Shown piece after piece: positions 2,238 to 16,885 of a DNA stretch of 44,826 nt. Under the pieces are notes generated by a model. That model was given only the letters and a program-made list of their open reading frames with translations, searched no databases and was not told the origin of the DNA. How positions within the stretch are numbered: position 1 is the first letter of the stretch; each line of letters starts with the position of its first letter. The DNA comes from an uncultured Oscillospiraceae bacterium (GTDB lineage: Bacteria > Bacillota > Clostridia > Oscillospirales > Oscillospiraceae), in assembly GCA_944385435.1 (NCBI GenBank), contig CALWXG010000016.1, forward strand, positions 1 to 44,826. Direction: 5' to 3'. A program made the translations under genes and the position numbers.

Positions 2238-2702
2238 TTACATTCCGCCCAAAAGCCCGATCACAAACAGAGCGCCGATCACACACAGTCCGATGATGCA
2301 GGCCCGGTTTCCATTGTGAATTGCGCGGTTTGCCGCCTCCTGGCTGGTGGCCTTGACCGCTCGGGACCGGCAGACAAACCCGTAGATGGCTACGGGCCAG
2401 CACAGAAAGATACAGATGACAGAAAGAATGGTCAGAGTCTGGACATCCGCGACCGGAGTAGGCCGGGGACGGGGCTGCGGAGGATTTGGCACAGGCTGAG
2501 GCCGCGGAGGATCTGGACGCACAGGTTGTGGAGGATTATACCGGGCTCCGCACTTGCTGCAGAAGATCATACCCGGCTCCATCTCACTGTGGCAGTTCGG
2601 GCAAATTTTCCGTTGGGACTGAGCGTGCAGTTTCGTTCCGCATTTGCTGCAGAAGACCGCTCCGTCCGGCTGCTGTGCTCCGCATTTTGGACAAAATGTC
2701 AT
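2238..2702 (-). CDS. Double zinc-ribbon membrane protein
   Basis: A 154-aa protein. Two zinc ribbons open it: CPKCG...CSKCG (about residues 4-24) and CPNCH...CSKCG (about 33-53). A linker rich in proline and arginine follows (about 55-85), then two hydrophobic segments at the C-terminus, the last ending in LFVIGLLGGM. The ATG at 2702 is chosen because GGGAGAG precedes it and the first ribbon starts there; a longer frame has no ribosome binding site. The layout suggests a cytoplasmic zinc-ribbon head on a two-pass membrane anchor. It lies 36 nt upstream of the membrane-hairpin dynamin and is probably co-transcribed with it. Such proteins often accompany membrane NTPases, but no specific function can be given. 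Confidence 0.8.
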   Translation of the reverse strand: MTFCPKCGAQQPDGAVFCSKCGTKLHAQSQRKICPNCHSEMEPGMIFCSKCGARYNPPQPVRPDPPRPQPVPNPPQPRPRPTPVADVQTLTILSVICIFLCWPVAIYGFVCRSRAVKATSQEAANRAIHNGNRACIIGLCVIGALFVIGLLGGM

Positions 2703-3009
2703 TTCAGTCTCTCCCTTCAGAATGGCAAGTGTTATTTTGTTGGTCCTTTGCAACCAAAAACGAGTGATTTGCGGATAAAATCAAGAGTAACTAACAGGAT
2801 CAATGGGTGCAGGACTGTATCCTGAAAATATGGTGTATGGAACAGCGGAGCCAGCCGCTCGTCAGTGAGGCGAGACAGGAATGGTACACGCAACCCCGTC
2901 CTGAACATGAACAGGTAAGCAGAAGCGCCTGAGAAACGAGGGAAAAGCCTTGCAGGAATTCAGCGGCTGCGCAGCAGCGCATAGCTTTCTGTTCCGCATC
3001 ACGAAGGAG
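2703..3009 (-). other. Intergenic spacer between zinc-ribbon genes
   Basis: About 307 bases with no convincing gene. It has several short inverted repeats (a CTCG/CGAG pair near 2860, a CCTG/CAGG pair near 2905, and a GC-rich palindromic patch near 2970-2990). It may hold the end of the upstream transcript or a structured leader. I see neither a clean terminator with a T tract nor the two-block motif found upstream of the two arms. Confidence 0.4.
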
Positions 3010-3489
3010 TCAATGACATTCCGGACAAGGCTCATAGCCTTCGAATTCAGCTTTGTTTACGTTATACGCGATGATGGACCAATCACCATCCCAATTCCAG
3101 GTGGCACAGGTGTAGGTGTGGTAAAGGTTGTCGCCGCTGTCGTTGTCAATGATGGCAATGTATTGATCCAAGAACTCTGCTTGCTCTGCAAGTACCGTGT
3201 TTTCCTCTTCCAGGTCACTGTATCGGAAGTAAAGTGAGTCATACAGGTTGGAGTAAAATGAGGCGTTGTTGTACTGAATCACAGAAAAGACAATGGAGAA
3301 AACGCAGGCAGCCGCCAGTATCACGGTGAGAAGAATCCGTTTTTTGCTGGAACCCTGCTTTTTTTCCTCTTGAAGCAACTGCCCGTCGGTTGAATTAGTC
3401 TGATGCGATGCTGCCAGCCGGGTGCCGCATTGTTGGCAAAACACCTGATCATCTGCGGACTGCAGTCCGCAGTGCGGACACTGTTTCAA
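3010..3489 (-). CDS. Zinc-ribbon, single-pass membrane protein with Cys/His tail
   Basis: A 159-aa protein. An N-terminal zinc ribbon (CPHCG...CQQCG, about residues 4-23) is followed by a charged linker, one transmembrane helix (about 51-70, ILLTVILAAACVFSIVFSVI), a coiled-coil stretch (about 85-110), and a C-terminal domain ending in YHTYTC...GYEPCPECH. That tail could bind a second metal outside the membrane. The TTG at 3489 is chosen because AAAGGAGAT sits 8 nt upstream and the ribbon begins immediately; the longer frame starting at 3552 would overlap the preceding gene and lacks a site. It starts 22 nt after the previous zinc-ribbon gene. A transmembrane link between cytoplasmic GTPases and an outer sensor is possible but inferred. 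Confidence 0.75.
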   Translation of the reverse strand: MKQCPHCGLQSADDQVFCQQCGTRLAASHQTNSTDGQLLQEEKKQGSSKKRILLTVILAAACVFSIVFSVIQYNNASFYSNLYDSLYFRYSDLEEENTVLAEQAEFLDQYIAIIDNDSGDNLYHTYTCATWNWDGDWSIIAYNVNKAEFEGYEPCPECH

Positions 3490-3511
3490 TGTGCAACATC
3501 TCCTTTCACGT

Positions 3512-4003
3512 TTATTGCCGTTCCAGTATCTGTGCATCATATACCGTTTCAAGAATCATGCCTGGCCACAGAAGCTTGAAGGAAATGCGGGGGTTTTCTC
3601 CAAGCTTCAGAAGAAGGTGCCTGCGTTCTTTGCTCATGATGGTGGTACAGATGATATCGACTGTGGCGGTATCGGCGTTCACCCTGGTCCGGAGCGCACC
3701 TCCGGGTGGGACATTGCCCAGGGTTGTTCCATTTACGATGACCTTGTAGGTATTTGCAATGCACTGGAGCTGAGTATCGCGGGAAATCAGAATCGTGCGT
3801 GCCCTGCAGCTGATGTTTTGGCTGTCTGGTACCGGCGTATTCACCCTCTCACCGCACTGATTGCAGAAAGCGGAGTCCTCTGCCACCTGTGCTCCACAGT
3901 TCGGACAGAGATGCCGGGCGGAGCCTTGAACCGGGCTTCCGCAACTGGTGCAGAAGTTGCTTTCGGGCAGCAGCGGGGCACCGCATTTGTTGCACGTGCT
4001 CAC
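3512..4003 (-). CDS. Double zinc-ribbon protein with C-terminal beta domain
   Basis: A 163-aa protein. Two zinc ribbons (CNKCG...CTSCG and CPNCG...CNQCG) cover about residues 4-55. The C-terminal part has alternating hydrophobic strands with the stretch VIVNGTTLGNVPPGG, reminiscent of PEGA-like or small beta-sandwich domains, and no transmembrane helix. The GTG at 4003 is chosen because GGGGGGAG precedes it by 7 nt and it overlaps the upstream dynamin stop as GTGA, a sign of translational coupling. It is probably a soluble partner of that dynamin. The ribbon call is firm; the role is unknown. Confidence 0.75.
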   Translation of the reverse strand: MSTCNKCGAPLLPESNFCTSCGSPVQGSARHLCPNCGAQVAEDSAFCNQCGERVNTPVPDSQNISCRARTILISRDTQLQCIANTYKVIVNGTTLGNVPPGGALRTRVNADTATVDIICTTIMSKERRHLLLKLGENPRISFKLLWPGMILETVYDAQILERQ

Positions 4004-5781
4004 AGATGTTCTCCCCCCTCGAATTCGCTCCAAAGAGCCTCACTTTGTTTCAGAATCCCTTGGGTGTTCTGATAAAATGTTTGGTAGTTCTGAAGATATG
4101 CTTTATATTGCAGATCCTGCTTTTCCTGTCGTTGATTCAACTCCTTCGTCACACAGGAGATGAGCTCCTTTAAGTGTCCATAGAACTGATCAGACCAATT
4201 TTTGCGGATGGTGTTCACAATCTGATTCAGCTCCATGATGTAATTTGAAACAGAGGTGTCTGCGGCCTGGATGATCATCTCAATGACATCACAATTGGCC
4301 AGATTCTGCCACTGGGAAGAATAAGGGGTCTCCAGTTTGAAGACTGCGTTGCGGAAAATTGTTTCTGCGAATCGGTTCATGGATTGCGCTGTCTCAGGGA
4401 AGCCAATGATCTTTGCCACATCTGGAAAGCCGGAAACAGCCTGCAGTGCCTGACGTTCCGCTTCCTGAAGGGGAGGGAGGGAGTCCGTAAGAATCTGAAT
4501 CATCTCATGCTGCATGGATGTGCGCCGCCTGAGAAGTTCACGGCCGATCTGCTCGGCAGCTTTGTTTAGGGTCGAAAGAATGACCTCATGGCTGTTCACC
4601 CGCACGCTTGACAAGCCCTTGATAAATTCATTGACAATATAATTTTTGTTTCCATTGAATTTACTGATCATGGTTTGCAGAGAACTGAGATTCCTGGACA
4701 GAGCATCCTCCAACGCCCTTTGGGAGTTGGAACAGTAGTCCTTTAGCAGCTGTGTATTTTGCTCCAGCATCACAAAGCCATCCTGGAGTACTGCTTTGCG
4801 CTTCTGATCCTGCTCATCAAACTTTGCAGCCACCGAGTGAAGCACAGCAATTGTTTTTTGAATGGCATGTTCCAGCTGCTTGGAGGTTACTGCATGCAGC
4901 AACGCATTGCGAAACGGTTCAAACCGGCTTTTTTCAAGCATGTCCCGGTTGTTGGAGACGAAGGAATCCAGAGCCAGCGACGAGGAGATTCCATTGATCT
5001 GCAGGTGGTCCAGCAGTTGATGGGCTTTCCGGAGAACAGGCTCAGGACTGTTCCGTTTTTCCAGTTCTGCAAATACCGTGGACTGAATGCGCTGGCGGAC
5101 AAATCCCATGAATCGTTCGTAGTTGTAATCGTCCTCATCCAGTTGGTCCAGGAAGGTGACGACAAACACCAGATTGGTGATATTCTCGCTTTCGATAAGC
5201 TGACAGACAAACTTCATTTCTGTTTCGCTGAAGGGGGCGTGAGCGTGGATCGGCACAATCACCGCATCCACATTTGCCACCATGTCAATTGTGATTTGGG
5301 TCATACGCGCGTCATCGTTCAGACCGGGTGTGTCAATGATATCAATGTGATTCTGGCAGAATACTGTGGGGAAATACACAGTGGCCTCCTTGATCTGCAA
5401 GGCCCTTGCCGCTCCCTCTGCCGTAATTTTTGTGACATAGTCCTTCAGTTCGTGAACGGGAATTTCCTGCTCCCTTCCATCTTGAAAGGTGATGACCGCT
5501 CTTGGCGCTGCGCCGTATGTGATGCGGTTGATGGTCGCGGTGGTAGGTGTTGCGTCGGCGGGCAGGATCCGAGAACCGAGAAGTGCGTTGATCAGGGAAC
5601 TTTTGCCCCGCTTGAATTCGCCCATAACGGCGACTTTATACTGCTTGTTCTTGATGAGATTCTTGCACTCCTGCAAGGCATCAAGCAGGCTCTGGTCAAA
5701 ATTCAAAACTGACAGCATATCCTGCATCTGGACCAAGCACTCATGGAGACGGTATTCCACGCTTTGATATTCCGTTGCCAT
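4000..5781 (-). CDS. Dynamin-like GTPase, soluble form (DLP-2)
   Basis: A 593-aa dynamin-like GTPase: G1 GEFKRGKS at about 54-61, switch threonines in TPTTATI (78-84), G3 DTPGLND (150-156), and a non-canonical G4 position TFLD (209-212). The rest is mainly helical with coiled-coil character. Unlike the other dynamin here it has no glycine-rich hydrophobic hairpin, so it may be the cytosolic member of a heteromeric pair, as known for paired bacterial DLPs. The ATG at 5781 follows AGGAGG by 8 nt; the longer frame to 5883 has no site. It is the first gene of the left arm, downstream of the two-block motif at 5962-6009. The family is secure; pairing is inferred from synteny. Confidence 0.9.
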   Translation of the reverse strand: MATEYQSVEYRLHECLVQMQDMLSVLNFDQSLLDALQECKNLIKNKQYKVAVMGEFKRGKSSLINALLGSRILPADATPTTATINRITYGAAPRAVITFQDGREQEIPVHELKDYVTKITAEGAARALQIKEATVYFPTVFCQNHIDIIDTPGLNDDARMTQITIDMVANVDAVIVPIHAHAPFSETEMKFVCQLIESENITNLVFVVTFLDQLDEDDYNYERFMGFVRQRIQSTVFAELEKRNSPEPVLRKAHQLLDHLQINGISSSLALDSFVSNNRDMLEKSRFEPFRNALLHAVTSKQLEHAIQKTIAVLHSVAAKFDEQDQKRKAVLQDGFVMLEQNTQLLKDYCSNSQRALEDALSRNLSSLQTMISKFNGNKNYIVNEFIKGLSSVRVNSHEVILSTLNKAAEQIGRELLRRRTSMQHEMIQILTDSLPPLQEAERQALQAVSGFPDVAKIIGFPETAQSMNRFAETIFRNAVFKLETPYSSQWQNLANCDVIEMIIQAADTSVSNYIMELNQIVNTIRKNWSDQFYGHLKELISCVTKELNQRQEKQDLQYKAYLQNYQTFYQNTQGILKQSEALWSEFEGGEHL

Positions 5782-5961
5782 TTCACAGCCTCCTGAAGCC
5801 TCTGTTTTGCTCTGGGGTGTTCGGTGCGCACAGGGCAGATTGCTTTGGGAAAGCACCTGCGGCGCACAGGACAAACCCAGCACAGAGACCGGTTGTCTTG
5901 GGGCAAGCTGATATGGATGTTCAGTTCATTGGCTTCCATGGGCGCCCCGCTTCTTTGCTTA

Positions 5962-6009
5962 TCGACAGGATATCACACGGGAGCGTGCGGCCGTCCAACT
6001 GATTTCCGA
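5962..6009 (-). promoter_or_regulatory. Two-block shared promoter/operator motif, copy 1
   Basis: Plus-strand blocks TCGACAGGATATCACAC (5962-5978) and GTCCAACTGATTTCCGA (5993-6009) are separated by 14 nt. The same blocks with the same spacing recur at 16838-16885 before the Hsp70-like gene, while the 14-nt spacers are unrelated. Read on the minus strand, toward the dynamin gene, TTGGAC (-35-like) lies 17 nt from TGATAT or 20 nt from TATCCT. An extra conserved half, TCGGAAA, sits just upstream of the -35. This looks like an activator-dependent promoter. The divergent HTH/LuxR regulator gene starting at 6119 is the obvious candidate to act here. Confidence 0.7.
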
Positions 6010-6055
6010 ACAGAGGCGCGGGTGATGGCGGTGCCCGTTGCGCAGTGCATTTCTC

Positions 6056-6118: not shown

Positions 6119-7315
6119 ATGGAGTACCTCACTGTACAGGAAACAGCCGGAAGATGGAACGTGTCAAAGCGGATGGTACAGAAGTTCTGCATTGACGGGC
6201 GTATCCCCGGCGCGCAGAAATTCGGGCGGGCATGGGCGATCCCGGCCGATGCGGAAAAGCCAAAGGATCCCCGTTTCGCCCATACGGATGCGAATCGGTC
6301 AGCTGATATGTCCGGCCTGATCAGCCGCGGCTGTCTCATGCCCCTGATGAATACTTCCTTCCAGCCGGGGCACTGTCTGAACACGGCGCAGGCCATGGAA
6401 GAGGGCCCGCAGAGGGATATCGCCCTGGCGGAGTACCATTATTTCAGCGGCCAGCCGGAAGAGGCGGCCAATGAGGCGGAGGCCTATCTCACCAGCCAGG
6501 ACGCTGGGGCCCGGCTGTCTGCCTGCCTGATCTATGCCTATGCAAATCTCTCTCTGGGCCGCATTCAACGGGCCAGATTTGCATTGAACGAGATGAACGC
6601 AGCCTTGGTCAACGGGACGAAGTCTCCGGAGACAGAGGCCGCCTGCGCCTTTACAGCAGCTGCCGGAGCAGTGCTGCTTCACCTGCCTCTGCCTGAAGGA
6701 ATGCCGGATATTCGCGGCTTTTTGCCCCTTCTGCCGCCGGGACTGCGGGCCTTTGCCCTGTACGTCTACGCCCACCACCTTTATTTGCAGGAGAACTATG
6801 GCCCCAGCGCTGGAATTGTGGAAGGTACACTGGCCATGGGGGCATCTCGCTATCCCATCCCCGCCATTTATCTGCACCTGGTGGCGGTGATGGACTACAT
6901 GGGGATGAAGCAGACCGACAAAGCCAAAGAGCATCTCCTGGCAGCCTGGGAGCTGGCCCGTCCGGACGATCTCATCGAGGGTTTGGGTGAGCACCACGGC
7001 CTGTTGGGTGGAATGCTGGAGGCGGTGATCAAACCTGGATGGCCGGAGGATTTCAAGCGGATCATCGACATCACCTACCGGTTTTCTGCCGGCTGGCGCA
7101 AAGTCCACAACCCGGAGACGGGCCATGATGTGGCGGACGATCTGACCACCACCGAGTTTGCTGTGTGTATGCTGGCGGCCAAGGGGTGGAATAATTCCGA
7201 CATCGCAGAGCATCTGCACATTTCTTCCAATACAGTGAAGCGTCACATCTCCGAGGCCATGAAAAAGCTGGAGGTGGCCAACCGGAAAGATCTGAAACGA
7301 TATATGCTGCGATAG
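6119..7315 (+). CDS. Transcriptional regulator: excisionase-type HTH, helical repeat region, LuxR-type HTH
   Basis: A 398-aa protein. Residues 1-50 form a MerR/excisionase-like winged HTH (EYLTVQETAGRWNVSKRMVQ...RAWAIPADAEKP). The middle, about 80-330, is alpha-helical with TPR-like AxxYxxxGxxxxA spacing (ALAEYHYFSGQPEEAANEAE). The C-terminus is a GerE/LuxR HTH (NNSDIAEHLHISSNTVKRHI). The ATG at 6119 follows AGGAGG and agrees with the HTH start. It is the only plus-strand gene in the accessory block, lies between the two minus-strand arms, and is divergent from the motif-bearing dynamin promoter. It therefore probably controls both arms. DNA binding by either HTH is inferred from the fold; the ligand or signal of the helical region is unknown. 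Confidence 0.85.
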   Translation: MEYLTVQETAGRWNVSKRMVQKFCIDGRIPGAQKFGRAWAIPADAEKPKDPRFAHTDANRSADMSGLISRGCLMPLMNTSFQPGHCLNTAQAMEEGPQRDIALAEYHYFSGQPEEAANEAEAYLTSQDAGARLSACLIYAYANLSLGRIQRARFALNEMNAALVNGTKSPETEAACAFTAAAGAVLLHLPLPEGMPDIRGFLPLLPPGLRAFALYVYAHHLYLQENYGPSAGIVEGTLAMGASRYPIPAIYLHLVAVMDYMGMKQTDKAKEHLLAAWELARPDDLIEGLGEHHGLLGGMLEAVIKPGWPEDFKRIIDITYRFSAGWRKVHNPETGHDVADDLTTTEFAVCMLAAKGWNNSDIAEHLHISSNTVKRHISEAMKKLEVANRKDLKRYMLR

Positions 7316-7316
7316 C

Positions 7317-7428: not shown

Positions 7429-8184
7429 TCAGTCAAAAATCCACACGCCTTCCCCGTCGCAAACCGGGCAGACACCGGTTTGATTACAGACGGTACACTC
7501 AAAATCATTGTGTTCTCCATAGTAGATATTATCCGCCCATCCATCGCCGCCGCAGGCGTCACACACGCCCGATCCGCCGCAGGACTCACAGACCATGGCA
7601 GAGCCACCGGAATCAGGAACCGTTTCACCCGGCTGCACCTGAATGCCAAAGGGATCGTTCTGGAACGTACCGCCGCTGCCGTTGCCGCTGGGGGTGTCGT
7701 CCAGCACCACGGCGCTGGGCAGGAACAGATCCCACTGATTGATGTCTTTTACAAAATATCCGAGAAAGTAATTGCCCTGAAGAATGGCGTATTCACTGTA
7801 TGTGCCATCGGCGTAAAGATGCTCCAACTCCATTCCCGCTGCCTGGACTAGCATCTGATACGTCAGAAAAAGAGAGTTGTCCATCAGGTTTGCCGAAGGA
7901 GAAAATAGGTAGGTATACTGTGTGAACACATAGATGCCTCCGTCAATTTCCAGTTCAACGCCGTTGGTCTGGCTGACAGCGGCATCCGGAAGAACCAGCA
8001 CCGGGTCGGGCATGGTGAATTGTTCCTGGTTCTGAGGAGAAGTATCCTCGTAGGGTGCGGCGGCAGAGGGGTCGGTTCCCTGCCTTTGCGGCAAATCACT
8101 TGCCTGATTTCCACATCCGAACAGGGAGATCAAAATGAATGTGGGGATCAAAATCACACAGATCAGATTGCGGATTTTTTTCAT
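7429..8184 (-). CDS. Lipoprotein with a DnaJ-type CxxCxGxG cysteine-rich domain
   Basis: A 251-aa protein. It starts with a basic and hydrophobic signal sequence ending in a lipobox, LFGC (about residues 21-24), so it should be lipid-anchored outside the membrane. A linker rich in Asp, Gln and Pro and a beta-rich middle domain follow. The C-terminus has four cysteine repeats: CESCGGSG, CDACGGDG, CTVCNQTG and CPVCDGEG. This matches the zinc-binding domain of DnaJ, without a J domain. No good ribosome binding site is seen before the ATG, but the signal peptide fixes the start. It lies downstream of the LytTR gene after a 264-nt structured leader. An Hsp70-like ATPase in the same cluster makes the DnaJ-like zinc domain suggestive, although the two should be on opposite sides of the membrane. 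Confidence 0.8.
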   Translation of the reverse strand: MKKIRNLICVILIPTFILISLFGCGNQASDLPQRQGTDPSAAAPYEDTSPQNQEQFTMPDPVLVLPDAAVSQTNGVELEIDGGIYVFTQYTYLFSPSANLMDNSLFLTYQMLVQAAGMELEHLYADGTYSEYAILQGNYFLGYFVKDINQWDLFLPSAVVLDDTPSGNGSGGTFQNDPFGIQVQPGETVPDSGGSAMVCESCGGSGVCDACGGDGWADNIYYGEHNDFECTVCNQTGVCPVCDGEGVWIFD

Positions 8185-8448: not shown

Positions 8449-9165
8449 CTAAATTTCCAGAGTCTCTTTGTAGTGTGCTTTGCTGATGTAAATATCCTCT
8501 CCATTGCAGAGGCGTACCGATTTCTTTTGTTTATCCACCAATAAGATCGAGGAACGGCTGACCAGATAACTCTGGTGCACGCGGACAAAACAGCAGTTTG
8601 GCACCATCTGCTCCACAGAGGAGAGCTTTCCGAGAAAAGAATACTCGGATCCGTTTTTCAGATGCAGGAAAATGTGATTTCTTTCGCTGCGGAAGTATAG
8701 GATGCTCTCGAAGGGGATGCGATATTTCAGTCCCTTTGTCTCCCATTCAAAAAGCTTTTGACGGGCGGCGTTTCGATGCAATTGTGATACGGTCTGATAG
8801 CATTCCGAGCGGGTTGGCTGCAGGAGGTAGCGTATCGGTCTGGCAGGGATAAGACGGCTGAAATACTGTACCAATGCCTGCGTACCTTCCGGAAGGGAGA
8901 AATCATAGTAGACCAGTGCGCAGTGCGAATTCTGAACACACACCGCATTTCCGATCATCGTGGCCCGAACCGGATCCGAGGCGTTTACAAACGCGATCTG
9001 AGCGTCTGTACAGGCTGACCGGACTTCATCTTCCGTCACCGCTGCCTTCAGCCATTTTATCGTGATTTCTATGTTCTGCCCGATGGAATACGCCGCAAGA
9101 ACGTCATGAAACAGCCTTTTTCCATCCTCGCTTTGCGCATCTACAACCACACAGAGCTGTTCCAT
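8449..9165 (-). CDS. LytTR DNA-binding protein with degenerate receiver-like domain
   Basis: A 238-aa protein. The C-terminal about 100 residues form a LytTR DNA-binding domain (IPFESILYFRSERNHIFLHL, then FVRVHQSYLVSR and ISKAHYKETL). The N-terminal about 115 residues look like a receiver fold (LCVVVDAQSEDGKRLF at the start), but the acidic pocket and phospho-acceptor aspartate are not recognisable, so phosphorylation control is doubtful. The ATG at 9165 is chosen because GGGAGGTGAG sits directly upstream; the longer TTG start would overlap that site. It follows the 148-aa gene by 27 nt. It may add a second level of control to the cluster. No sensor kinase gene is present in the window. Confidence 0.8.
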   Translation of the reverse strand: MEQLCVVVDAQSEDGKRLFHDVLAAYSIGQNIEITIKWLKAAVTEDEVRSACTDAQIAFVNASDPVRATMIGNAVCVQNSHCALVYYDFSLPEGTQALVQYFSRLIPARPIRYLLQPTRSECYQTVSQLHRNAARQKLFEWETKGLKYRIPFESILYFRSERNHIFLHLKNGSEYSFLGKLSSVEQMVPNCCFVRVHQSYLVSRSSILLVDKQKKSVRLCNGEDIYISKAHYKETLEI

Positions 9166-9192: not shown

Positions 9193-9639
9193 TCAGATGC
9201 GTCTGCCGCGTTCCAGCGCAGCGATCTGCTCCGGTTCCAGAATTTCCATCAACTGTGCGTGGTATTCAGCAATGGCCGCGTCCAGGCAGCCGGACTTTTC
9301 GTCATACAAGCGCAGCACCTCATCGCATAGTACTGACAGGCGTTTGATGTCTTCCGGCTTGCGGGGCGTCATCTGTCCAGAGAGCTCCGGATTCTGGCTG
9401 AAAGGAAGGCGTTCAAAGGATTGTAATGTGCACTGGGGGTATGTGATTTCAAGATAGTATGCGGGCGGTGAGAGTTTCACTGCGTTCCCTTCCGGCTTGA
9501 TCCGGAAGCCGATAAACGCCGCCAGAAGCACCTCGCCGTCAAGGCGGAACAGGGGATAGGTTCTTCTCAATTCCAGGGGCAGGAGCCTTCCCAGTATTTC
9601 GTCCCGCAGAATGCGGAGATTGAAGTCTCGCAATGTCAT
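9193..9639 (-). CDS. Unrecognised 148-aa protein
   Basis: I do not recognise a family. The protein is soluble and mixed alpha/beta. It begins MTLRDFNLRILRDEI, has a beta-rich middle (AAFIGFRIKPEG, YYLEITYP) and a charged helical end (ILEPEQIAALERGRR). There is no signal peptide, transmembrane helix or cysteine cluster. A GAGG-containing site precedes the ATG. It lies 16 nt after the cysteine-peptidase gene and 27 nt before the LytTR gene, so it is almost certainly co-expressed with the right arm and may be an accessory or substrate of the peptidase or ATPase. Confidence 0.75.
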   Translation of the reverse strand: MTLRDFNLRILRDEILGRLLPLELRRTYPLFRLDGEVLLAAFIGFRIKPEGNAVKLSPPAYYLEITYPQCTLQSFERLPFSQNPELSGQMTPRKPEDIKRLSVLCDEVLRLYDEKSGCLDAAIAEYHAQLMEILEPEQIAALERGRRI

Positions 9640-9655: not shown

Positions 9656-10453
9656 TCATGCGTCGTTCGGGTATGCGGACACCATGAAACCGCCGCTGGG
9701 CGCCCAGGCTTCCATGAACTCAAGATAGGGGATTGACTGCCCGCAGCCGCCCTCGATGCCGGAATCGTTGACGATGACCCTGACATCCAGAGGATCAGAG
9801 TCATCAATTCCGATGATTTCGATGGCATGATCCATCCCATATACCGGATAGTTGCCGAAACCGTCCGTCCAGAGAACCATGCTGTCGACGGCGACGATTA
9901 CACGCCCGCCCTGGTCAAGGGCTGCCTTGATATCCTGGATGGTGCCCTCGTAGTTGGTTTGCGTATCAATGCCGTACAGTTCCAAGAGATTGCCAACGTC
10001 GTTGAGAGTTGTCCCGGACTTCGGTTCATACCACCCTTTGGACTCTGCGAGGTCGCACAGCTCCGTCTCAGTCAGCTCAAGATCCAGAAACTCGTTGATA
10101 ATAAACTGCTGGGTACAGACCGCACAGGAATAATTTCCCTCCTGTACGTGCCATTCTTCCGTTGCTTCGGAGATGTTATAGGATTCCATTCCTTCCGTGA
10201 CCTGACCTTCGGTATCAGAAGGAGCAAGACGTTCTGTGTCATAACCGCTTTCCTCCCCATCGAACAGGTCGACCACAGGCTGGACGATTCTGTTGAGGAG
10301 TGTTTCCAGCCAGGACGCATCGCTTTCGCTCAGATCCGCACAATTGCCAACTCCCTTCATGGTTTGCCTTGCGGTTGCCTCCATGAGTTCGCCCGGGTTT
10401 TCAAGTGGCGGCAGAGATTCGTTTATCCCGCCGGTTTCCAGGAATTCATTCAT
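9656..10453 (-). CDS. Papain/C39-like cysteine peptidase, no export signal
   Basis: A 265-aa protein. An acidic N-terminal part (1-100) without a signal peptide precedes a papain-fold domain. Gln104 and Cys110 (QEGNYSCAVC, the oxyanion Gln six residues before the nucleophile) are followed by GRVIVAVDS (183-191), His209 in YGMDHAIEIIGID, and Asn229/Asp230 in VIVNDSG. This order matches peptidase family C39-like proteins. The ATG at 10453 follows GGAGGTG. It lies between the small membrane-anchored gene (22 nt upstream) and the 148-aa gene. C39 domains usually clip leader peptides on ABC exporters, but there is no exporter or precursor in this cluster, so it may process another cluster protein. 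The catalytic triad is assigned by motif position only. Confidence 0.8.
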   Translation of the reverse strand: MNEFLETGGINESLPPLENPGELMEATARQTMKGVGNCADLSESDASWLETLLNRIVQPVVDLFDGEESGYDTERLAPSDTEGQVTEGMESYNISEATEEWHVQEGNYSCAVCTQQFIINEFLDLELTETELCDLAESKGWYEPKSGTTLNDVGNLLELYGIDTQTNYEGTIQDIKAALDQGGRVIVAVDSMVLWTDGFGNYPVYGMDHAIEIIGIDDSDPLDVRVIVNDSGIEGGCGQSIPYLEFMEAWAPSGGFMVSAYPNDA

Positions 10454-10474: not shown

Positions 10475-11050
10475 CTACAGGTCAACAAAACCGGGCATGA
10501 CCATGCCGTATTCCACCACATTTCTGCCGATAAGCCAGGCTGGCTTGATGATGGTGTATTCCATACCGATCTGAGGTTGATTCCCGCCGGCCACAATATA
10601 AGCTTGCTGCATGACAGCATCTGCTTTACAGCAGAGGCCCTGATGACGATCACGGGAAATGCCTGCTTGTGCAAAACAGCGCAGCAGCAGCTGGTACTTT
10701 TCCCGGCACAAAGTTTCGTTCTGGATATCCTCTTTTGAAAACAGACTGGAAAATGAGCTTTGAAAGGAGATATCCCCCAGCTGTCCGACCCGGTCACACC
10801 ACTCGATGTACGCATCGACAATGAGGGAATTCTGAATTTTTGCGGCCTGATACAGCCCTTCAAAAAGCCCATCAAACTCTGCGGCGTGACGACGTATGCC
10901 GGCGGCGACTGCAGCCAGTGCACGCTCATTTAAGGCTGCACGGTTGTCCTGTCTTGCACGCCGGGACCGCAGCAGACAGAAAGAGCCGTAGCCGACAGCG
11001 AGAACCGCCAGGATCAGACCGGAAAGATACATGAGTTTAGGGTTGCTCAT
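10475..11050 (-). CDS. Small membrane-anchored protein of unknown function
   Basis: A 191-aa protein. One N-terminal transmembrane helix (about residues 8-27, YLSGLILAVLAVGYGSFCLL) is followed by a basic patch RSRRARQ, so the remaining about 160 residues should be cytoplasmic. These are helical with several cysteines and end in a short beta segment (EYGMVMPGFVDL). AAAGGGGGAA precedes the ATG. It lies 14 nt after the HerA-like ATPase gene and 22 nt before the peptidase gene. No family is recognised. A membrane tether for the ATPase or peptidase is possible but inferred from order alone. Confidence 0.75.
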   Translation of the reverse strand: MSNPKLMYLSGLILAVLAVGYGSFCLLRSRRARQDNRAALNERALAAVAAGIRRHAAEFDGLFEGLYQAAKIQNSLIVDAYIEWCDRVGQLGDISFQSSFSSLFSKEDIQNETLCREKYQLLLRCFAQAGISRDRHQGLCCKADAVMQQAYIVAGGNQPQIGMEYTIIKPAWLIGRNVVEYGMVMPGFVDL

Positions 11051-11064: not shown

Positions 11065-13692
11065 TTAAAATTCAGGCTTCTTCATGTGGATCCACGCCGC
11101 GGCGTCGTCCCGGTCGCCGCACACGATGGCGTTTCCCGGAGTCAGGCAGGCGATCAGAGCCTTCTGTTCCGGCCGGAGCGCCACGCTTGCGGCCATGACG
11201 TCCGAGTCGTCCGGCGAGACCAGCCGGTGAATGATCTTGTAGTTCGTATTTTTGATGGCGTCCGGGATCAGCCGGGTGGGATACTGGTCCACGATCATCA
11301 TTCCCTCTCCGTAACTGCGTATTTCAGAGAGAATATTGGTGAACAGGTCGGCCACTACCTTCTGCGGATTGTTGGCGGATGCCCCTGCATCCGGTTTGGT
11401 GAGAATGTTATGTGCTTCTTCCACCAGAGTCAGATGCAGAAGCCGGTTTTCCTGCGCCTTCGCTCTGTATTCGGCATCGTAGGTGTATTTGGATTTCTTA
11501 TACTCATATAGAGACAGCATCAGTACGGACATGATGAGAGCCTTGTCCCGGGCGGCTGAGATGCCGCTGATGTTGATGACAGTGGGATGCTCAAAAATTT
11601 CGCGGTAGTCTGTGGAGCGCATGACATTGAGCAGCCGGCCACGGGTCCCGCGGGTCAGATACTGAAACCGTGTCTCCAGACAGGTTGCCAGATTGGCTTT
11701 TACTTTCTCCTCGTAGTTTTTCCTCTTCATGACCTGCCTGCTCATCACAGTCAGCGTAGAGAGCAGGGGATAGTGCTCTTGTTGAGGCATCAGAACACCG
11801 GTGCTGAACAGGTTGGGATAAGCCAGGTCGTAGAGGGAGTAGATTGTCTCGTCAATCAGGACGGGAAGGATGTCCTCCGTGGGCAGGCTGGCATTGATGA
11901 GGGCAATCAGATTTTCGCAGCGGGATGTCATATCCACCATGGCGCCGGGAACGGCCGCCGGCTCAAAGGGGCACAGGCGCAAGGTCTGCAGCGGCGTCCC
12001 CTCGAATGTGTCGAAGCCGGGCATATAAATGCGAAACTGTTTCTCTTCCGGCAGATGCTCGTTCATCTTGATCGCCCATCGGACATAGTCATCCTTTGCC
12101 GGTTCGATGATCAGGGAGGGGACATCTTTCTCCAGAAGTTCGGACAGAATGCGCTTGCAGGTGCAGGATTTTCCGGAACCGGTAGATCCGACTACCAGAG
12201 AATGGCGGACCAGGTCATTGTGGTCCACGCGATAGGTTGCATTTTGCTCCACACCCATATTGACTACATTTCCAAGGCAAATGGAGTCCGCGTCCAGCAC
12301 CGGCGGATTATTGGCAAACCGGACGGCGGTCTTCACAAAGCGAAGACCCGGGGCATCACACTGGGGGAGGGAAGTGGCAAGGGCGAATTCCTTTGTGTTC
12401 ATCGGAGTGCTGAGATATTGGTAGTATTTCCCGAAGATGTGCCATTCGGTTTCCTCCTTCATGGAGGGTACCGTGTTGTCAAACAGGGGGATGATGTTGA
12501 AATAGTCCCGCACGATCTCCAGGGCACCGGATTGTTCCCGCAGGACGTGAAGGCGGATGGGCTCCACATAGCTCTCCTTGCCGGCGTAGATGGAGCGGAG
12601 CATGCCGTTGACCGTGGTGATGTCCTTCCTGTCGTTGGCGAGAACGTATATGCCCACATTCCAGTACCCCAGGTTTCGCCCCTGCTTCATCCGTTCAATG
12701 TGAATCTCCGTGAGCTGTTCCGCATACTGGGCAAATTTGTCCAGATAGGAGGTGCTCACGGACAGGTTGACCTGGTTGCTGATGGTCTTGTTCAGGTTGC
12801 CGAGCACAGTTCCGCCCGCGATGCCGATCGCACTGCCGATGAGGTTGCCGATCGGACCGAAGAATCCGCCCACGCCTCCCAACAGTCCTGCGACCTGGGA
12901 CATGGCATAGGGATTCAGACCTTTCTGGCTGGACTCGGACATGCCTTTGCTGTCGTTGATGGTGCGCTCTACAAAAGAGTGGATCTCGCTGCCCAGCGTG
13001 CGCATCCGGTTCATGATGTTCGTGGTTTCTGCATCGTTGATGGGGTCCGCGATGACCAGCAGGCTGTAGTCCCGCTCATCCCCCTGCAGACCGCGGATAC
13101 CGAAAGCCAGGGGATCCAGAGTCTGCAGAACTCCCAGGGATTTGTCACCGAAGAAGGAGGGAAGTCCGGTGACTGCGCCGACAGATTTGTACTTTATCAT
13201 GTTAATGGTAATGTCTTTCAGAATCTCATGGTCGCTCAGATGATGCAGTTCAATGCCAGGCATGCTTCCGGAAGTGGCTTCCAGGATCTGTTCGATCGCA
13301 TCACGGGAGGTAAAGTGAGACAATTCCGAACGGACGCCAATATACAGGCTGGTCTGTCCGGCCTCGCGCTGCAACAGGAAATAGACCCGATACCCCCACT
13401 CGTGGAGGGAGGACAGCACACCCTGCCAGCGGTTGAACAGGTCATAGTTCTGGGCGTTATCCGGTCGGACTGGAAGACGGACGATTTTCAGCCAGGTGAT
13501 AGCAGGAGTCTGCTCATCATTGATGAAGAAGGATGTGCGGCTGCCCACGCTTTCCAGGGCCCCCCGCTCCATCACCTTGTCCAGCAGTTCCCGGAATTCG
13601 TTGTTCGGTACAACAATGGGATTTTGAATATGCAGTCTGTCCAGGCTGATGCCTCGGGCCAGATCAGTCAGTTTCAGATTCCGCTCACTCAT
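11065..13692 (-). CDS. HerA/FtsK-type ATPase with glycine-rich hydrophobic segment
   Basis: An 875-aa protein. Walker A VGSTGSGKS is at about residue 500, Walker B LTLVEEAHNIL at about 755, and GMMIVDQYP at about 800 is a sensor-like strand. This is the HerA/VirB4-type (DUF87) arrangement, a hexameric pumping ATPase family. The N-terminal half is not nuclease-like. It has a glycine-rich hydrophobic segment at about 264-297 (LLGGVGGFFGPIGNLIG) that could enter a membrane. The ATG at 13692 follows GGGAGGG; an upstream TTG would overlap that site. It is the central and largest gene of the right arm. HerA relatives move DNA or protein, but no NurA nuclease or conjugation genes are present, so protein or membrane translocation is as likely as DNA work. 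Confidence 0.85.
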   Translation of the reverse strand: MSERNLKLTDLARGISLDRLHIQNPIVVPNNEFRELLDKVMERGALESVGSRTSFFINDEQTPAITWLKIVRLPVRPDNAQNYDLFNRWQGVLSSLHEWGYRVYFLLQREAGQTSLYIGVRSELSHFTSRDAIEQILEATSGSMPGIELHHLSDHEILKDITINMIKYKSVGAVTGLPSFFGDKSLGVLQTLDPLAFGIRGLQGDERDYSLLVIADPINDAETTNIMNRMRTLGSEIHSFVERTINDSKGMSESSQKGLNPYAMSQVAGLLGGVGGFFGPIGNLIGSAIGIAGGTVLGNLNKTISNQVNLSVSTSYLDKFAQYAEQLTEIHIERMKQGRNLGYWNVGIYVLANDRKDITTVNGMLRSIYAGKESYVEPIRLHVLREQSGALEIVRDYFNIIPLFDNTVPSMKEETEWHIFGKYYQYLSTPMNTKEFALATSLPQCDAPGLRFVKTAVRFANNPPVLDADSICLGNVVNMGVEQNATYRVDHNDLVRHSLVVGSTGSGKSCTCKRILSELLEKDVPSLIIEPAKDDYVRWAIKMNEHLPEEKQFRIYMPGFDTFEGTPLQTLRLCPFEPAAVPGAMVDMTSRCENLIALINASLPTEDILPVLIDETIYSLYDLAYPNLFSTGVLMPQQEHYPLLSTLTVMSRQVMKRKNYEEKVKANLATCLETRFQYLTRGTRGRLLNVMRSTDYREIFEHPTVINISGISAARDKALIMSVLMLSLYEYKKSKYTYDAEYRAKAQENRLLHLTLVEEAHNILTKPDAGASANNPQKVVADLFTNILSEIRSYGEGMMIVDQYPTRLIPDAIKNTNYKIIHRLVSPDDSDVMAASVALRPEQKALIACLTPGNAIVCGDRDDAAAWIHMKKPEF

Positions 13693-13727
13693 TGCTCGAA
13701 TCCCTCCCAAAGGTGAATTTCAACCAA

Positions 13728-14438
13728 TTACTGCTCCATCTTTTTCCGTTCTTCCTTGGCCAACTCCTGGGCCATATACCTCTTTGCCGCATTGATTTCA
13801 GCCTGGCTGCCGTGTTTATATGCTGTTTCCAGCCGCCATTCCGCGTGAGATACACTGCCAAGGGTGGGCTGGTCAGGGGTGGTTTCTGCCGATGCGGCCA
13901 CAGGTGCTTCGGAAGAGCGGGATGCAATGGCCTCTTGATACAGCTTCATGCGGGTATCCAGGATGTTTTGGGCGTTCTCCACATTGCTCATGGCCGACAT
14001 CACGCCGGTGCCCCGCTCAATGGCCTGTTCCAATCGTTCCTGGGCAGACTCGAGATTTTTCATATCTTGCTCCAACTGCAGACTGAGCTTCTCCGGGCTG
14101 GGGCCAACGTAGCTGCCGCCCTCTGAGACGGTTTCCTTTGGAAGAGAACCGACATCCAGGCCAAAGGAGTCGTTTTGAAAGGAGAAATCCTCCAAGCCGG
14201 CGGGGTCTTCCGCAGCGTCTGACTTCGGTTCCACGTAGAAAACAGCATCCGGCAGATCGAAGGGATTGCTTCGGTCCGCCTGGGCGGCCTCCTGTGCTTC
14301 CGCCTGATCGGTGGTAAAGCGGATCTTCGGCATCAGATCCTCTGAGACCATATCGGTCCAGATGGGATTTTGAAACGAGCCCAGATTACCGGTCTCCGGA
14401 GTGGCCTCCGGCGTCATATCATAATTTTCATATCCCAT
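13728..14438 (-). CDS. Acidic coiled-coil protein of unknown function
   Basis: A 236-aa protein. The first about 115 residues are acidic, rich in Pro, Asp and Glu, and probably disordered. Residues about 118-180 are strongly helical and coiled-coil (LEQDMKNLESAQERLEQAIE), and the C-terminus is a basic helix (AKRYMAQELAKEERKKMEQ). There is no signal peptide or membrane segment. AAGGAGGC precedes the ATG. It lies 100 nt after the Hsp70-like gene and 35 nt before the ATPase gene. It could be an adaptor bridging the two, a role often taken by such proteins, but no family is recognised. Confidence 0.75.
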   Translation of the reverse strand: MGYENYDMTPEATPETGNLGSFQNPIWTDMVSEDLMPKIRFTTDQAEAQEAAQADRSNPFDLPDAVFYVEPKSDAAEDPAGLEDFSFQNDSFGLDVGSLPKETVSEGGSYVGPSPEKLSLQLEQDMKNLESAQERLEQAIERGTGVMSAMSNVENAQNILDTRMKLYQEAIASRSSEAPVAASAETTPDQPTLGSVSHAEWRLETAYKHGSQAEINAAKRYMAQELAKEERKKMEQ

Positions 14439-14537
14439 GATACAGGCCTCCTTGTTCTTGTTTGATAAGAGATTAGCATGTCCGCAGATGTGAAGCCGGT
14501 GATTTGGATTTTTGGATGTGGAACCGGGACAATTCGC

Positions 14538-16787
14538 TTATACGGGCCAGTCTGGCTCTGAAGCCACAGACGTTTCCCGCAGGATCTGCTGAAGGCTGCA
14601 AAGGCTTTCTCCCAATTGGAAGGTCTCCCACACGTGCTTGCCAATCGTTCCGCTGCTGTCCTCCAGTACGGTATTCAGAAACTCTGACCATAATATGGTT
14701 GGGCCGCTGTAATCCGACCAAAAGTTCCACAGACGTATCTCAAGTCCATTTGACGTGATGGCGGCAATCGAATCACCTTCGCCCCCGATGCCTCGGATGA
14801 AATAGACGTCCGGGTTCCCGCGCAGACTCCATTTTTTTGTGTTTTCAGTCCAATTGTGATAGTGGGAAAGCTCATTGCTGCGGTTGATGATGGGGTCTTC
14901 CTGGATAAACTGTTCCACCAGCGGCAAAAGACTGTCGTCCCAGCGATACCGCCCGTGACTTGCGCTGCCGGCCAGGGCCGGGGCATGGGTCTCTCCGCGC
15001 AGCGTGTAATAGAGCTTGTCCATGCCCCTCATGATGTGTTCACTGCTGAACCAGGCGGAGGCGAGCCCATTGTGGTAATAGGAATAGATGGATGACGTGC
15101 CGAAGAGACTGGCCCCTTCTCTGTGGCTGTTCTGAAAAAGCGGCCAGGTCATATATTCTTTTGTGAACTTCTGAAAGGAACCCGCACGCCTCATATAGAT
15201 GCCCGTTGCAGTCAGTACGGCACCGGTCTGACCGGCACCGTTGTCATAATCATCCGCATAAAGGATCTCATCGTCCGCTGCGATGCCGAAGCTCTTCCGC
15301 AGGCATTCCGTCAGAGATCGGTTTTCCGCCTGATTGGTTTTCTTCAGATCCGGCGCAGTTGCAATGATGTGCCGCACAATTGCCTGTGTCCGGTCTGCAG
15401 CGTTTGTTTTCCGGTGAGTCTGATGTATCTGGGTCGTGTAAGGGGTGCCCTTCGGGGGTTCATCGGTTGCGGAGTCCTCTGTTTTCGCGGCCTCTATGGT
15501 GAATTCCTCAGCGCCCGTTTTCTGCAGAGAAGGTTTTTCCAGGGGTGTGTTTTGGGGGGCTGGTTTTTCCAGCTTGTAGGGCAGTTTGCTGTAGACAAGC
15601 CCCAGGGAAACCGTGGTCTGGGGATTGGGCAGGCTTATCACCCGGTTGGGGTTCTCCCGCACTCTGGTCAGAGCCGGGTGTTCCAGCCAGCCGGCCATGG
15701 CGCCGGTGAGAATCTCCTTTGCGAAGTACCAGGCACTGTGTCCGCCGGTAAGAATGACCAGATCCAGTCCGACCTCAGAAAACTGCGCATCCTGATGGCG
15801 GCTTTCCTCCAGGCATCCCTCCAGAAGCCGGACATAATCCCGCAGTCCGCTGCCGGCAAAATCCTCAAACTCGGCCCGGCCAAAGGCGGGAAAGTGGGTG
15901 CTGAGCATGGAGCGGATCCCGTCGAGATACCCGCATGTGGTGACTGGATTGTTGGCGGAAAGCTGCTTTGACACAGTGAGTTCCTTCCACTTCTTGGCGC
16001 TTCCTGGGGCGTTCGCCATATCGTGGGCCAGTTGATGGAGGGCTGGCGCCAGCGCCTGGGAGAGGTAGCCTTCGACATACTGACTCAGCATGGCGTCGAT
16101 TTCCCGTCCGCCGAAGGTCGGCTCATCCGAATTTTGCGGCCAACTGGTGACCAGTTCAATGGCGAGCCCGCCATCTGAGATGCGGTATTTGCATACCACC
16201 AGGTCTGTGGTCCCAGCGCCCATGTCAATGAGCAGCAGATATCCCGGCTTGTCCGCATAGATGAGGCCTTTGCCGTTGCTGTTCTGGCACAGGACTGCGG
16301 CCACAGCGGCTTCCGCCTCATCCATACCGCGGACATTCTGAAACCCTGCCTCCTGTGCGGCTTCCAGCATGAACCGGCTGGTGTCAGCCTGCCACTTGAC
16401 CGGGTAGGAGACCACCGTCTCCACTTCATCGTCTTCAGAGCCCAGGTTTGCTGCCTGCTGGAGATAGGTGGCATAGAGAAAACGGAAAAACTCTTTCGTG
16501 ATGCGCATGGCCTCTGCGCGCTCCGTTTCGTTGTCACTCTCCAGGCGCATCTTGATCTCGGAGTAAATTCTGGAGCCCGCCAGCGGCTCCGCGGCCTTTT
16601 CACCGAAATCAAAACTGCCGTCCGCATTCTCCCGGACAATGGTAGCCACATAACCGCTGGATTCACCGTAATTGAACATGACGGGAATGTAGCTGAACCG
16701 ATCGCCGTCTGGCTGATTGCCGTTGTAGCGCTTCACATTCATATAGGTGGTACTGGTGCCGAAATCAATCCCGATGACTCTATACAA
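14538..16787 (-). CDS. Hsp70/actin-fold ATPase with an unrecognised C-terminal half
   Basis: A 749-aa protein. The N-terminal about 400 residues are an Hsp70-like nucleotide-binding domain: phosphate-1 GIDFGTSTT (6-14), phosphate-2 LLIDMGAGTTD (185-195) and the adenosine motif VILTGGHSA (343-351). A Pro/Thr/Glu-rich linker (about 405-465) replaces the usual peptide-binding domain. It leads to a C-terminal region of about 280 residues with aromatic-rich motifs (YADDYDNGAGQTG, SSIYSYYHNG) that I do not recognise. The start is TTG at 16787, with GAGGGGG 7 nt upstream. It is the first gene of the right arm, just downstream of the second copy of the shared motif. It is an Hsp70-fold switch rather than a normal DnaK. 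Its pairing with dynamins recalls SrfB/SrfC of enterobacteria (recalled, unverified). Confidence 0.85.
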   Translation of the reverse strand: MYRVIGIDFGTSTTYMNVKRYNGNQPDGDRFSYIPVMFNYGESSGYVATIVRENADGSFDFGEKAAEPLAGSRIYSEIKMRLESDNETERAEAMRITKEFFRFLYATYLQQAANLGSEDDEVETVVSYPVKWQADTSRFMLEAAQEAGFQNVRGMDEAEAAVAAVLCQNSNGKGLIYADKPGYLLLIDMGAGTTDLVVCKYRISDGGLAIELVTSWPQNSDEPTFGGREIDAMLSQYVEGYLSQALAPALHQLAHDMANAPGSAKKWKELTVSKQLSANNPVTTCGYLDGIRSMLSTHFPAFGRAEFEDFAGSGLRDYVRLLEGCLEESRHQDAQFSEVGLDLVILTGGHSAWYFAKEILTGAMAGWLEHPALTRVRENPNRVISLPNPQTTVSLGLVYSKLPYKLEKPAPQNTPLEKPSLQKTGAEEFTIEAAKTEDSATDEPPKGTPYTTQIHQTHRKTNAADRTQAIVRHIIATAPDLKKTNQAENRSLTECLRKSFGIAADDEILYADDYDNGAGQTGAVLTATGIYMRRAGSFQKFTKEYMTWPLFQNSHREGASLFGTSSIYSYYHNGLASAWFSSEHIMRGMDKLYYTLRGETHAPALAGSASHGRYRWDDSLLPLVEQFIQEDPIINRSNELSHYHNWTENTKKWSLRGNPDVYFIRGIGGEGDSIAAITSNGLEIRLWNFWSDYSGPTILWSEFLNTVLEDSSGTIGKHVWETFQLGESLCSLQQILRETSVASEPDWPV

Positions 16788-16837
16788 GAGACTTCCCCCT
16801 CTGCGTCACACTGACATAGGCCTGGTGTCTTTCTTTG

Positions 16838-16885
16838 TCGACAGAATATCACACATTTGCCGGGCATCGTCCAACTAGTTTCCGA
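16838..16885 (-). promoter_or_regulatory. Two-block shared promoter/operator motif, copy 2
   Basis: Plus-strand TCGACAGAATATCACAC (16838-16854) and GTCCAACTAGTTTCCGA (16869-16885) have the same 14-nt spacing as the copy at 5962-6009. On the minus strand this gives TTGGAC, 17 nt, TGATAT (or 20 nt, TATTCT), with conserved TCGGAAA upstream. It ends 51 nt before the TTG start of the Hsp70-like gene. Confidence 0.7.

Follow-up and report, generated by a model that had tools for sequence, protein, structure and literature searches.

Gene organization of the locus

The stretch of DNA analysed here (the window) is the whole of a contig of 44,826 bp (G000:C16) from a genome of 2.87 Mb, the assembly of which is 94% complete. 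Between positions 132 and 16787 it contains a cluster of 13 genes on the minus strand and one divergent regulator, in which two dynamin-like GTPases are found together with zinc-ribbon proteins, an Hsp70-like ATPase, a HerA-type ATPase and a C39-type cysteine peptidase (Table 1). The identities of the genes were obtained through Pfam scans of 17 window proteins, 15 of which are encoded in 132-18845. All of the genes named in the original prediction for this region are present, and Pfam backs the families named there; the two dynamins that it described are real, but one of them (132-2201) lies outside the range 2238..16885 that it had assigned to the cluster.

The genes are organized in two arms. 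In the order of transcription, arm 1 comprises N, M, L, K, J, I and H, followed by a gap of 264 bp and then G, and arm 2 comprises DynE, ZrD, ZrC, ZrB and DynA, in which the three zinc-ribbon genes set the two dynamin genes apart. Given that the contig ends 131 bp past DynA, arm 2 may be truncated. Membrane or envelope segments are predicted from hydropathy in K, ZrB, ZrC, DynA and G, and the nucleoside triphosphatase (NTPase) motifs are intact in HerA and in both dynamins.

Table 1. Genes and upstream elements of the cluster, with likely start codons as indicated by Shine-Dalgarno positions
Feature	Position	Strand	Likely start	Description	Match or motif
DynA	132..2201	-		Dynamin-like GTPase with hydrophobic segment (paddle)	Dynamin_N 1e-29; hydrophobic residues 535-564
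ZrB	2238..2702 (open reading frame to 2753)	-	ATG 2702	Double zinc ribbon, two membrane segments	Zn_Ribbon_1 1.3e-17
ZrC	3010..3552	-		Zinc ribbon, one membrane segment	Zinc ribbon 2e-5, just below curated cut-off
ZrD	3512..4033	-		Double zinc ribbon, no membrane segment	DZR 9.8e-14
DynE	4000..5781	-	ATG 5781	Dynamin-like GTPase without strong hydrophobic segment	Dynamin_N 8.4e-26 (open reading frame 4000-5883); G1 motif GEFKRGKS
Arm 2 element	5952..6009	-		Promoter/operator-like element upstream of DynE	Counterpart of arm 1 element
F	6119..7315	+	ATG 6119	Divergent, LuxR-like regulator	HTH_17 2.5e-9; LuxR-type GerE domain 2.3e-13
G	7429..8184	-		Lipoprotein-like, DnaJ-like CxxC repeats	N-terminal hydrophobic segment ending LFGCG; four CxxC pairs
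H	8449..9165	-	ATG 9165	LytTR-domain DNA-binding protein	LytTR 6.7e-16
I	9193..9639	-		148 residues, directly after peptidase; proposed partner/inhibitor	Position only
J	9656..10453	-	ATG 10453	Papain-like C39-type cysteine peptidase; proposed effector	Peptidase_C39_2 1.2e-5
K	10475..11050	-		191 residues, one N-terminal membrane segment	Hydropathy, residues 9-27
L	11065..13692	-	ATG 13692	HerA/FtsK-type ATPase, long N-terminal region	DUF87/HerA (PF01935) 1.2e-10; Walker A GSTGSGKS; EEAH
M	13728..14438	-		Acidic protein, 236 residues	No Pfam match above cut-off
N	14538..16787	-	TTG 16787	Hsp70/actin-fold ATPase, 749 residues	HSP70 4.3e-6, residues 120-351; IDFGT, IDMGAGTTD, LTGGHS
Arm 1 element	16828..16885	-		Promoter/operator-like element upstream of N	TTGGAC, 17 nucleotides, TGATAT core; conserved flanks

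A shared element upstream of the two arms

The upstream motif that the original prediction had described as common to both arms is borne out by the comparison of the two elements, which are identical at 42 of their 58 positions and reach a best ungapped score of 26, against a maximum of 14 among 300 dinucleotide shuffles. The core pattern has two matches in the window, where 0.00 are expected, and when up to three mismatches are allowed over the 2.87 Mb of the genome, it is found at exactly these two sites (reversed control, 0). The arrangement of the core looks promoter-like, and it was not picked up by a generic promoter scan. The counts of the sigma-70 and terminator scan were no higher than those in shuffled sequence, and Rfam had no matches in 1-22000. 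Only two genes of the genome match Dynamin_N at E <= 1e-5, both in the cluster. The two arms look like one regulon, with the shared element as the candidate basis of their co-regulation, and separate regulation, an outcome that had also been considered in the original prediction, looks unlikely because of this element.

The ATPases of arm 1

The Pfam match of N to HSP70 is confined to its ATPase part. As an actin-fold ATPase, N resembles the SrfB of SrfB/SrfC, a parallel drawn in the original prediction, but this parallel is weak, given that N reaches 17.8 bits against SrfB, where the curated cut-off is 27.1. Relatives of N are rare. They are found in four of 150 genomes of the family, its own included (the other three at E 9e-7 to 5e-4), and in 13 of 391 genomes, again with its own, the only strong ones being those of G383, which has two such genes, and G151, on a 3.2-kb contig; the counterpart in locus L002 shares 40% identity with N. 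Because of this rarity, the C39 gene, which is rarer, and HerA served as starting points for measuring co-occurrence. Two candidate relationships were rejected through pairwise comparison, i.e., that of N with a 200-residue protein of L053 (17848-18450) and that of M with a 235-residue protein of G383, neither of which revealed any similarity.

Protein L has the DUF87/HerA domain, Walker A and Walker B that define the HerA/FtsK superfamily. It is 64% identical to its closest relative, in L002, and 52% identical to the nearest complete one, in G383, where K also has a counterpart at the equivalent place (pairwise BLAST, 4.9e-6). Among the NCBIfam models, it matches NF033849 (2.8e-25) and CedD (4.3e-21), each far below its cut-off. 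CedD is a DNA-translocating ATPase, and the best matches of the HerA profile in PDB are HerA/DUF87 helicases, which is what would be expected if HerA pumped DNA in order to exclude plasmids or phages, in the manner of the capture systems related to DndH or BREX, with the peptidase in a regulatory role; HerA capture modules are described for BREX-related systems in the accessible text of one article (PMC12839542). Such a DNA-directed system is quite improbable, however, as the scanned cluster proteins include neither a nuclease nor a DNA-modification protein. The partners expected in HerA-NurA, Dnd or BREX systems (NurA-type nuclease, Dnd, PglZ) have no Pfam match among the 15 proteins from 132-18845, and neither dynamin, GTPase nor Hsp70 is mentioned in the accessible portions of PMC12839542 and PMC10853773.

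The dynamin pair of arm 2

Eleos is an anti-phage system formed by the dynamin pair LeoA/LeoBC alone. The window resembles it in its paired dynamin-like GTPases, and DynA matches the PADLOC models of both LeoA (1.1e-26) and LeoBC (1.3e-20), as does DynE (3.3e-25 and, weakly, 1.5e-9), with each profile match spanning part of the length of the dynamin. It differs from Eleos by the addition of HerA, the Hsp70-like ATPase, C39, the zinc ribbons and the regulators. A dynamin pair at the membrane is also found in mycobacteria, where IniA/IniC is reported to promote vesicle release (PMC11077946, in its accessible text); no HerA or effector cassette is named in that portion of the article, and the comparison with the window dynamins is made at the level of the dynamin family.

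A match of DynE to a type VII effector model of NCBIfam was taken as chance, given that it covers 29 residues at E 0.0037 and reaches 17.8 of the required 26 bits. In the Pfam scans of the 17 window proteins, no parts of type VII secretion were matched (WXG100/LXG substrates or membrane parts of the EssB/EsaA type), and lipoprotein G, for all its DnaJ-like repeats, has no J-domain match.

The C39 peptidase and its relatives

Protein J is predicted to be an active peptidase of the C39 type, its catalytic triad being intact. Its Gln109, Cys115, His214, Asn234 and Asp235 (in the numbering of the open reading frame from 10468) are conserved without exception in the nine catalytic domains that were aligned. 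Several of its relatives bear long N-terminal repeats of the DxDGDG type, which cause weak calmodulin matches; repeats of this type are usual in calcium-rich settings outside the cell.

The peptidase is rare, being present, with its own genome included, in six of 382 genomes of the class and five of 329 genomes at the level of the phylum, where G852 alone is strong and G266 and G679 are weak. A region of G603 had no BLAST match to the cluster, and C39 scans of viral contigs yielded no matches. On plasmids, 20 and 22 records matched, and two of these were examined, one from Anabaena and the other from Rhodococcus. The loci examined number 11, i.e., eight reached through C39, two (L002 and L061) reached through Hsp70 and therefore not independent for Hsp70, and the window.

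The gene orders of these loci were compared. LytTR, an Hsp70-like gene, C39, a small protein, a dynamin, GrpE and a second dynamin succeed one another in L063, and L070/L071 has LytTR, two weakly Hsp70-like genes, C39, a small protein, a dynamin, a gene for a 245-residue protein and a dynamin. C39 and a small protein are followed by three dynamins in L072 and by two in L074, and L073 has LytTR and C39 before the contig ends. On a plasmid of Anabaena sp. 90 (L089), Hsp70 and four further genes precede C39, a small protein and two dynamins; on one of Rhodococcus qingshengii (L111), C39 is followed about 3.5 kb later by a dynamin, a GTPase and Hsp70. In L002, the order is Hsp70, C39, a small protein and HerA, after which the contig ends, and in L061 it is C39, a small protein and an Hsp70-like gene. 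A pair of dynamins or GTPases is thus found in six of the eight other loci reached through C39 (Clostridia, Anabaena and Rhodococcus), and, with the window counted, dynamins and/or Hsp70 are found in nine of 11 and LytTR in four of 11, the other three being L063, L070 and L073. From this survey it follows that the core is present in Clostridia and a cyanobacterium, with a looser form in an actinomycete. The original prediction had allowed that the homologues might never co-occur, which is contradicted by these gene families recurring together in other loci.

Small proteins come after C39 in most of the relatives, as I does in the window, and the view of I as an immunity protein is a positional argument only. 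GrpE, the gene of which separates the two dynamin genes of G403, had no match among the window proteins. Upstream of C39 and the three dynamins of L072 there are two beta-lactamase-fold proteins (L072:4056-8182), one of which has a weak kinase match and Big_2.

HerA relatives and their NTPase partners

Matches to HerA were found in 33 of 391 genomes of the class, its own included, and in 42 plasmid records, two phage records and 11 viral-contig loci, two of which are mutual duplicates. From these, a set of 40 HerA loci was assembled, made up of the window, L002, all 19 other places of the class at E < 1e-30 (16 genomes), ten of the 42 plasmid records and ten of the 11 viral loci, with G383 counted once; L104 was dropped as a duplicate of L103, the two phage records and the weaker genomes of the class were left out, and the near-duplicates L079/L081 (97%) and L090/L091 (88%) were retained. 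Many of the 40 loci are cut by contig ends. Generic HerA loci intended as a control gave a usable frame in six of 12 and were excluded from the counts.

When a dynamin neighbour is defined as one on the same strand and at most 9 kb from HerA, midpoint to midpoint, dynamins accompany HerA in 11 of the 40 loci and Hsp70-like ATPases in 12, with one or the other in 22 and both in one, which is the window. The Hsp70 profile was built with the window, L002, G383 and L054, so that eight of the 12 Hsp70-like loci are independent; of these eight, L100 has a 755-residue protein without Pfam match at E 0.01, and L090 has a protein annotated as TPR. Likewise, the two dynamins of the window are among the building sequences of the dynamin profile. 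In the 17 HerA-bearing genomes, 11 of the 14 places with strong Dynamin_N (E < 1e-12) are less than 10 kb from HerA, the other three being in G397, and at E <= 1e-5 the figure is 13 of 24 within 10 kb.

Dynamins and Hsp70 appear as alternatives, given that none of the 21 other HerA loci with one of them carries both. This might be expected if the two arms of the window were unrelated operons, neighbours by chance. Such a coincidence is hardly credible, however, in view of a promoter-like element that the genome holds at these two sites only and of the arm 1 peptidase, which adjoins dynamin pairs in other genomes. The window may bring together two units, a HerA-Hsp70 core of the short subtype and a C39-dynamin module. 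As the sole HerA locus of the 40 that unites all three NTPases, it is a good place to test their order of action.

Some of the HerA relatives have defence-type genes nearby, i.e., Abi, McrC, Csm6 with a DUF2357 protein, and NACHT, and WYL-type regulators are annotated upstream of the HerA operons of L093, L095 and L097.

Other NTPase arrangements were also encountered. The HerA operon of L054 (14597-17714) includes a true DnaK, a DnaJ/TPR protein and a weakly YbjN-like protein, and on the viral contig L101 (3202-7912) a full EF-Tu-like GTPase and an Hsp70-like ATPase lie upstream of HerA. In L105, L106 and L108, Hsp70 lies downstream of HerA.

A variable slot after HerA

The genes that follow HerA in its relatives form a variable effector slot, which the original prediction overlooked. 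In 22 of the 40 loci, the three genes next to follow HerA include one for an enzyme of toxin or protease type, the 40 being counted with 14 unscanned ones (L002, L076, L081, L082, L090, L093, L094, L099, L102, L105-L108 and L110). The enzymes are Colicin-DNase/WHH (L075, L077, L078, L097 and L103), GH-E (L079), LHH (L080), NS_2 nuclease (L059), HNH as given by the deposited annotation only (L092, L095 and L098), transglutaminase (L056), a protein of the glutamine-deamidase fold (L083), a weak ART (L084, E 0.002), zincins (G383, L052, L058, L091, L100, L101 and L109) and, in the window, C39. Several of the zincin matches are under the cut-off; HExxH is kept in all nine sequences checked.

Immunity-type neighbours accompany HerA in nine of the 40 loci, i.e., SUKH/SMI1 in L075, L077, L080, L092, L095 and L098, a YezG-like protein in L059 and DUF6985 in L078 and L097. 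According to Pfam, DUF6985 is a domain of unknown function, and its role in immunity is our inference. The HExRH zincin is followed by a family of partners of 94-114 residues in G383, L058, L100, L101, L103 and L109. For example, HerA, K, C39 and I of the window correspond in G383 to HerA, K, a zincin and a partner of 114 residues, with the two HerAs 52% identical as noted above, a difference that may be read as a cassette swap at one place. A variable toxin domain with an adjacent immunity protein at a fixed place is thus found for the HerA family, mainly for its longer subtype.

A motif near residue 20 (residues 20-24) is common to WHH nuclease and zincin effectors from three distinct loci. 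An expression for it, composed after some of the members had been seen, had seven hits among 903 open reading frames, all behind HerA and two of the seven duplicates, and this shared N-terminal motif is suggestive only. Pfam scans of the effectors behind HerA, most of which have fewer than 300 residues, found no long N-terminal trafficking domain.

The contents of the slot also bear on a machine of envelope stress or membrane repair, in which the dynamins would seal or remodel membranes, Hsp70 and HerA would handle polypeptides and C39 would have a quality-control or regulatory task, with no toxin involved. The tethering and tubulation of membranes by a paired bacterial dynamin is described, and a role of B. 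subtilis DynA in repair is discussed, in the accessible text of one article (PMC6104087); the block of C39, small protein and two dynamins is repeated without change in Clostridia and in a cyanobacterium, and the window has both a LytTR regulator and a lipoprotein. We consider this rather unlikely, given that it leaves unexplained the colicin-type DNases, the NS_2 nuclease and the SUKH, YezG and DUF6985 proteins behind HerA, several of which belong to operons that combine dynamin and HerA, as well as the patchiness of the system, with strong relatives of N in two other genomes of 391. Envelope stress alone, one of the three functions offered in the original prediction, does not account for such toxin- and immunity-type genes; taken as a whole, the interpretation given there is partly supported.

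Other products were observed in this position. Small hydrophobic proteins rich in Gly, Ser and Ala lie directly after HerA in L093 (12061-12979) and L099 (11157-11798) and might be membrane-active effectors. In L052 (1-9845), HerA and genes for a 106-residue protein and a zincin are succeeded by a gene for a radical-SAM protein and then by an open reading frame of 2714 residues with a hydrophobic start.

Proposed mode of action

With modest confidence, and from sequence comparison, we favour the explanation that the cluster is probably an NTPase-driven polymorphic-effector conflict system, the output of which would be the deployment of the C39 peptidase. The dynamin pair would sense or remodel the membrane and, together with the Hsp70-like ATPase, would switch HerA on. 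HerA would be the motor, docked via the membrane protein K, and would move or unfold J, which would act as the effector and be restrained by I in the producer cell.

Where J would act may be considered in two forms. The delivery of J at or across the membrane receives a slight, tentative preference because of the partner proteins of immunity type, the N-terminal motif that some effectors share, the repeats of the DxDGDG type, the lipoprotein and the reported role of IniA/IniC in vesicle release. Its action inside the cell, which is possible to nearly the same degree, would make the cluster an abortive anti-phage system in which the dynamins sense membrane damage caused by phages, Hsp70 and HerA transduce the signal and C39 has proteins of the host or the phage as its substrates. 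In favour of internal defence are the matches of both dynamins to LeoA and of DynA also to LeoBC, the defence-gene neighbours of some HerA relatives and the WYL regulators, and it agrees with the viral-contig loci of HerA relatives and with the lack of a signal peptide on J. On the other hand, the immunity-type partners are typical of delivered toxins, and an outward direction is indicated by the lipoprotein, the zinc-ribbon proteins with membrane segments and the repeats of the DxDGDG type.

Several observations weigh against the favoured explanation. No secretion channel was found for J, which also lacks the N-terminal effector motif, and a VirB4-like secretion ATPase comes far behind the helicases in the PDB comparison of the HerA profile. 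Neither by profile nor in pairwise comparison is protein I significantly similar to the small proteins that follow C39 elsewhere. C39 precedes HerA in L002, the downstream side of which is cut off, and it is a constant gene of the HerA-less dynamin loci L063, L070, L072, L074 and L089, as would also be expected of a protease with a task in regulation or processing; in L119 (G852), a strong C39 relative has neither dynamin nor Hsp70 nearby. Among the 13 HerAs of fewer than 930 residues, the kind found in the window, only that of the window has a dynamin nearby, and eight have an Hsp70-like neighbour; the other ten dynamin-linked HerAs belong to a longer subtype of 951-1199 residues, and all nine loci with SUKH, YezG or DUF6985 have long HerAs of 1028-1156 residues. 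Four of the 40 loci (L053, L054, L057 and L096) were scanned and have no toxin- or protease-type enzyme in the slot.

The proposed conflict system shares features with polymorphic toxin systems, in which, according to the accessible text of Zhang et al. 2012 (PMC3482391), the type VII secretion system is driven by an ATPase of the FtsK/HerA family. The relatives of the window HerA carry WHH, GH-E, LHH, NS_2 and papain-fold domains with SUKH/YezG-type partners, as described there. They differ in that the effectors behind HerA are mostly short, some sharing just an N-terminal motif, with no long trafficking region, and in that the machinery of the window includes dynamin and Hsp70, neither word being found in the available portion of that article.

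A novel delivery machine may also be envisaged, in which HerA loads short effectors (nucleases, zincins and papain-fold proteases), some of them bearing the same N-terminal tag. Hsp70-type chaperones would keep the effectors soluble, dynamin-remodelled membranes would release them, e.g., in vesicles, against rival cells, and adjacent immunity proteins would shield kin. This possibility, which we regard as unlikely, would if true extend over Clostridia, Bacilli, spirochaetes, cyanobacteria and proteobacteria and be found on plasmids, viral contigs and genome contigs.

The DO-GTPase/GAP1 systems (Kaur et al. 2020, PMC7159879) are the nearest in logic to the window. In the accessible text of that paper, their GTPases are paired in 38% of the systems and accompanied by zinc ribbons and variable effectors, with Hsp70 and GrpE in a subset and a proximity to the membrane. 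The window likewise has a GTPase pair, zinc ribbons and Hsp70; in place of DO-GTPases it has dynamins, and HerA in addition, and the word dynamin appears nowhere in the text of that paper. By its sequence, the window is not a member, because the DO-GTPase itself is absent; its GTPases have no match to Pfam DO-GTPase1/2, both being Dynamin_N. GAP1, GASH and FNIII are not among the names of the Pfam matches listed for the window (up to 25 each for two of the zinc-ribbon proteins), and no search was aimed at GAP1. One HerA locus, L053, encodes a DO-GTPase that also matches a zinc ribbon weakly, together with a protein of 653 residues that has an SH3_3 and an NADase_transloc domain (2677-4638 and 15781-17841), which makes it a possible bridge from the DO-GTPase systems to the HerA family of the window.

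The original prediction could match the whole set to no system, and literature term searches, which mostly omit subscription papers and bioRxiv, likewise found no described counterpart among the papers listed, nor any paper combining dynamin, HerA and polymorphic toxins, or dynamin and Hsp70/GrpE gene neighborhoods. If the favoured explanation is right, dynamins and Hsp70-type ATPases would be alternative NTPase partners of one HerA family, placed before variable toxin-type cassettes in several phyla. This would link the roles of paired bacterial dynamins, the cargo of NF033849-like HerAs and the deployment of short toxin-type enzymes that lack trafficking domains.

Genome setting

A match to SpoIIGA (3e-52) with an adjoining sigma factor gene lies elsewhere in the window and suggests that the source is a member of Bacillota of the spore-forming kind. 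In steps of 2 kb, the G+C content is 0.499-0.569 over 1-16000, against 0.575-0.657 over 18001-44000. The Hsp70 gene N was not found in two other genomes of the same genus that were searched, and both this absence and the lower G+C content of the cluster would fit an acquired island. In G145, of the same genus, 20 kb taken from one side of spoIIGA (L121) had no BLAST match to the cluster, and the contig of G066 stops at the spoIIGA side (L122). Finally, the gene at 17379-18845, between the cluster and spoIIGA, encodes a GDSL lipase in which S-layer (SLH) repeats occur three times.

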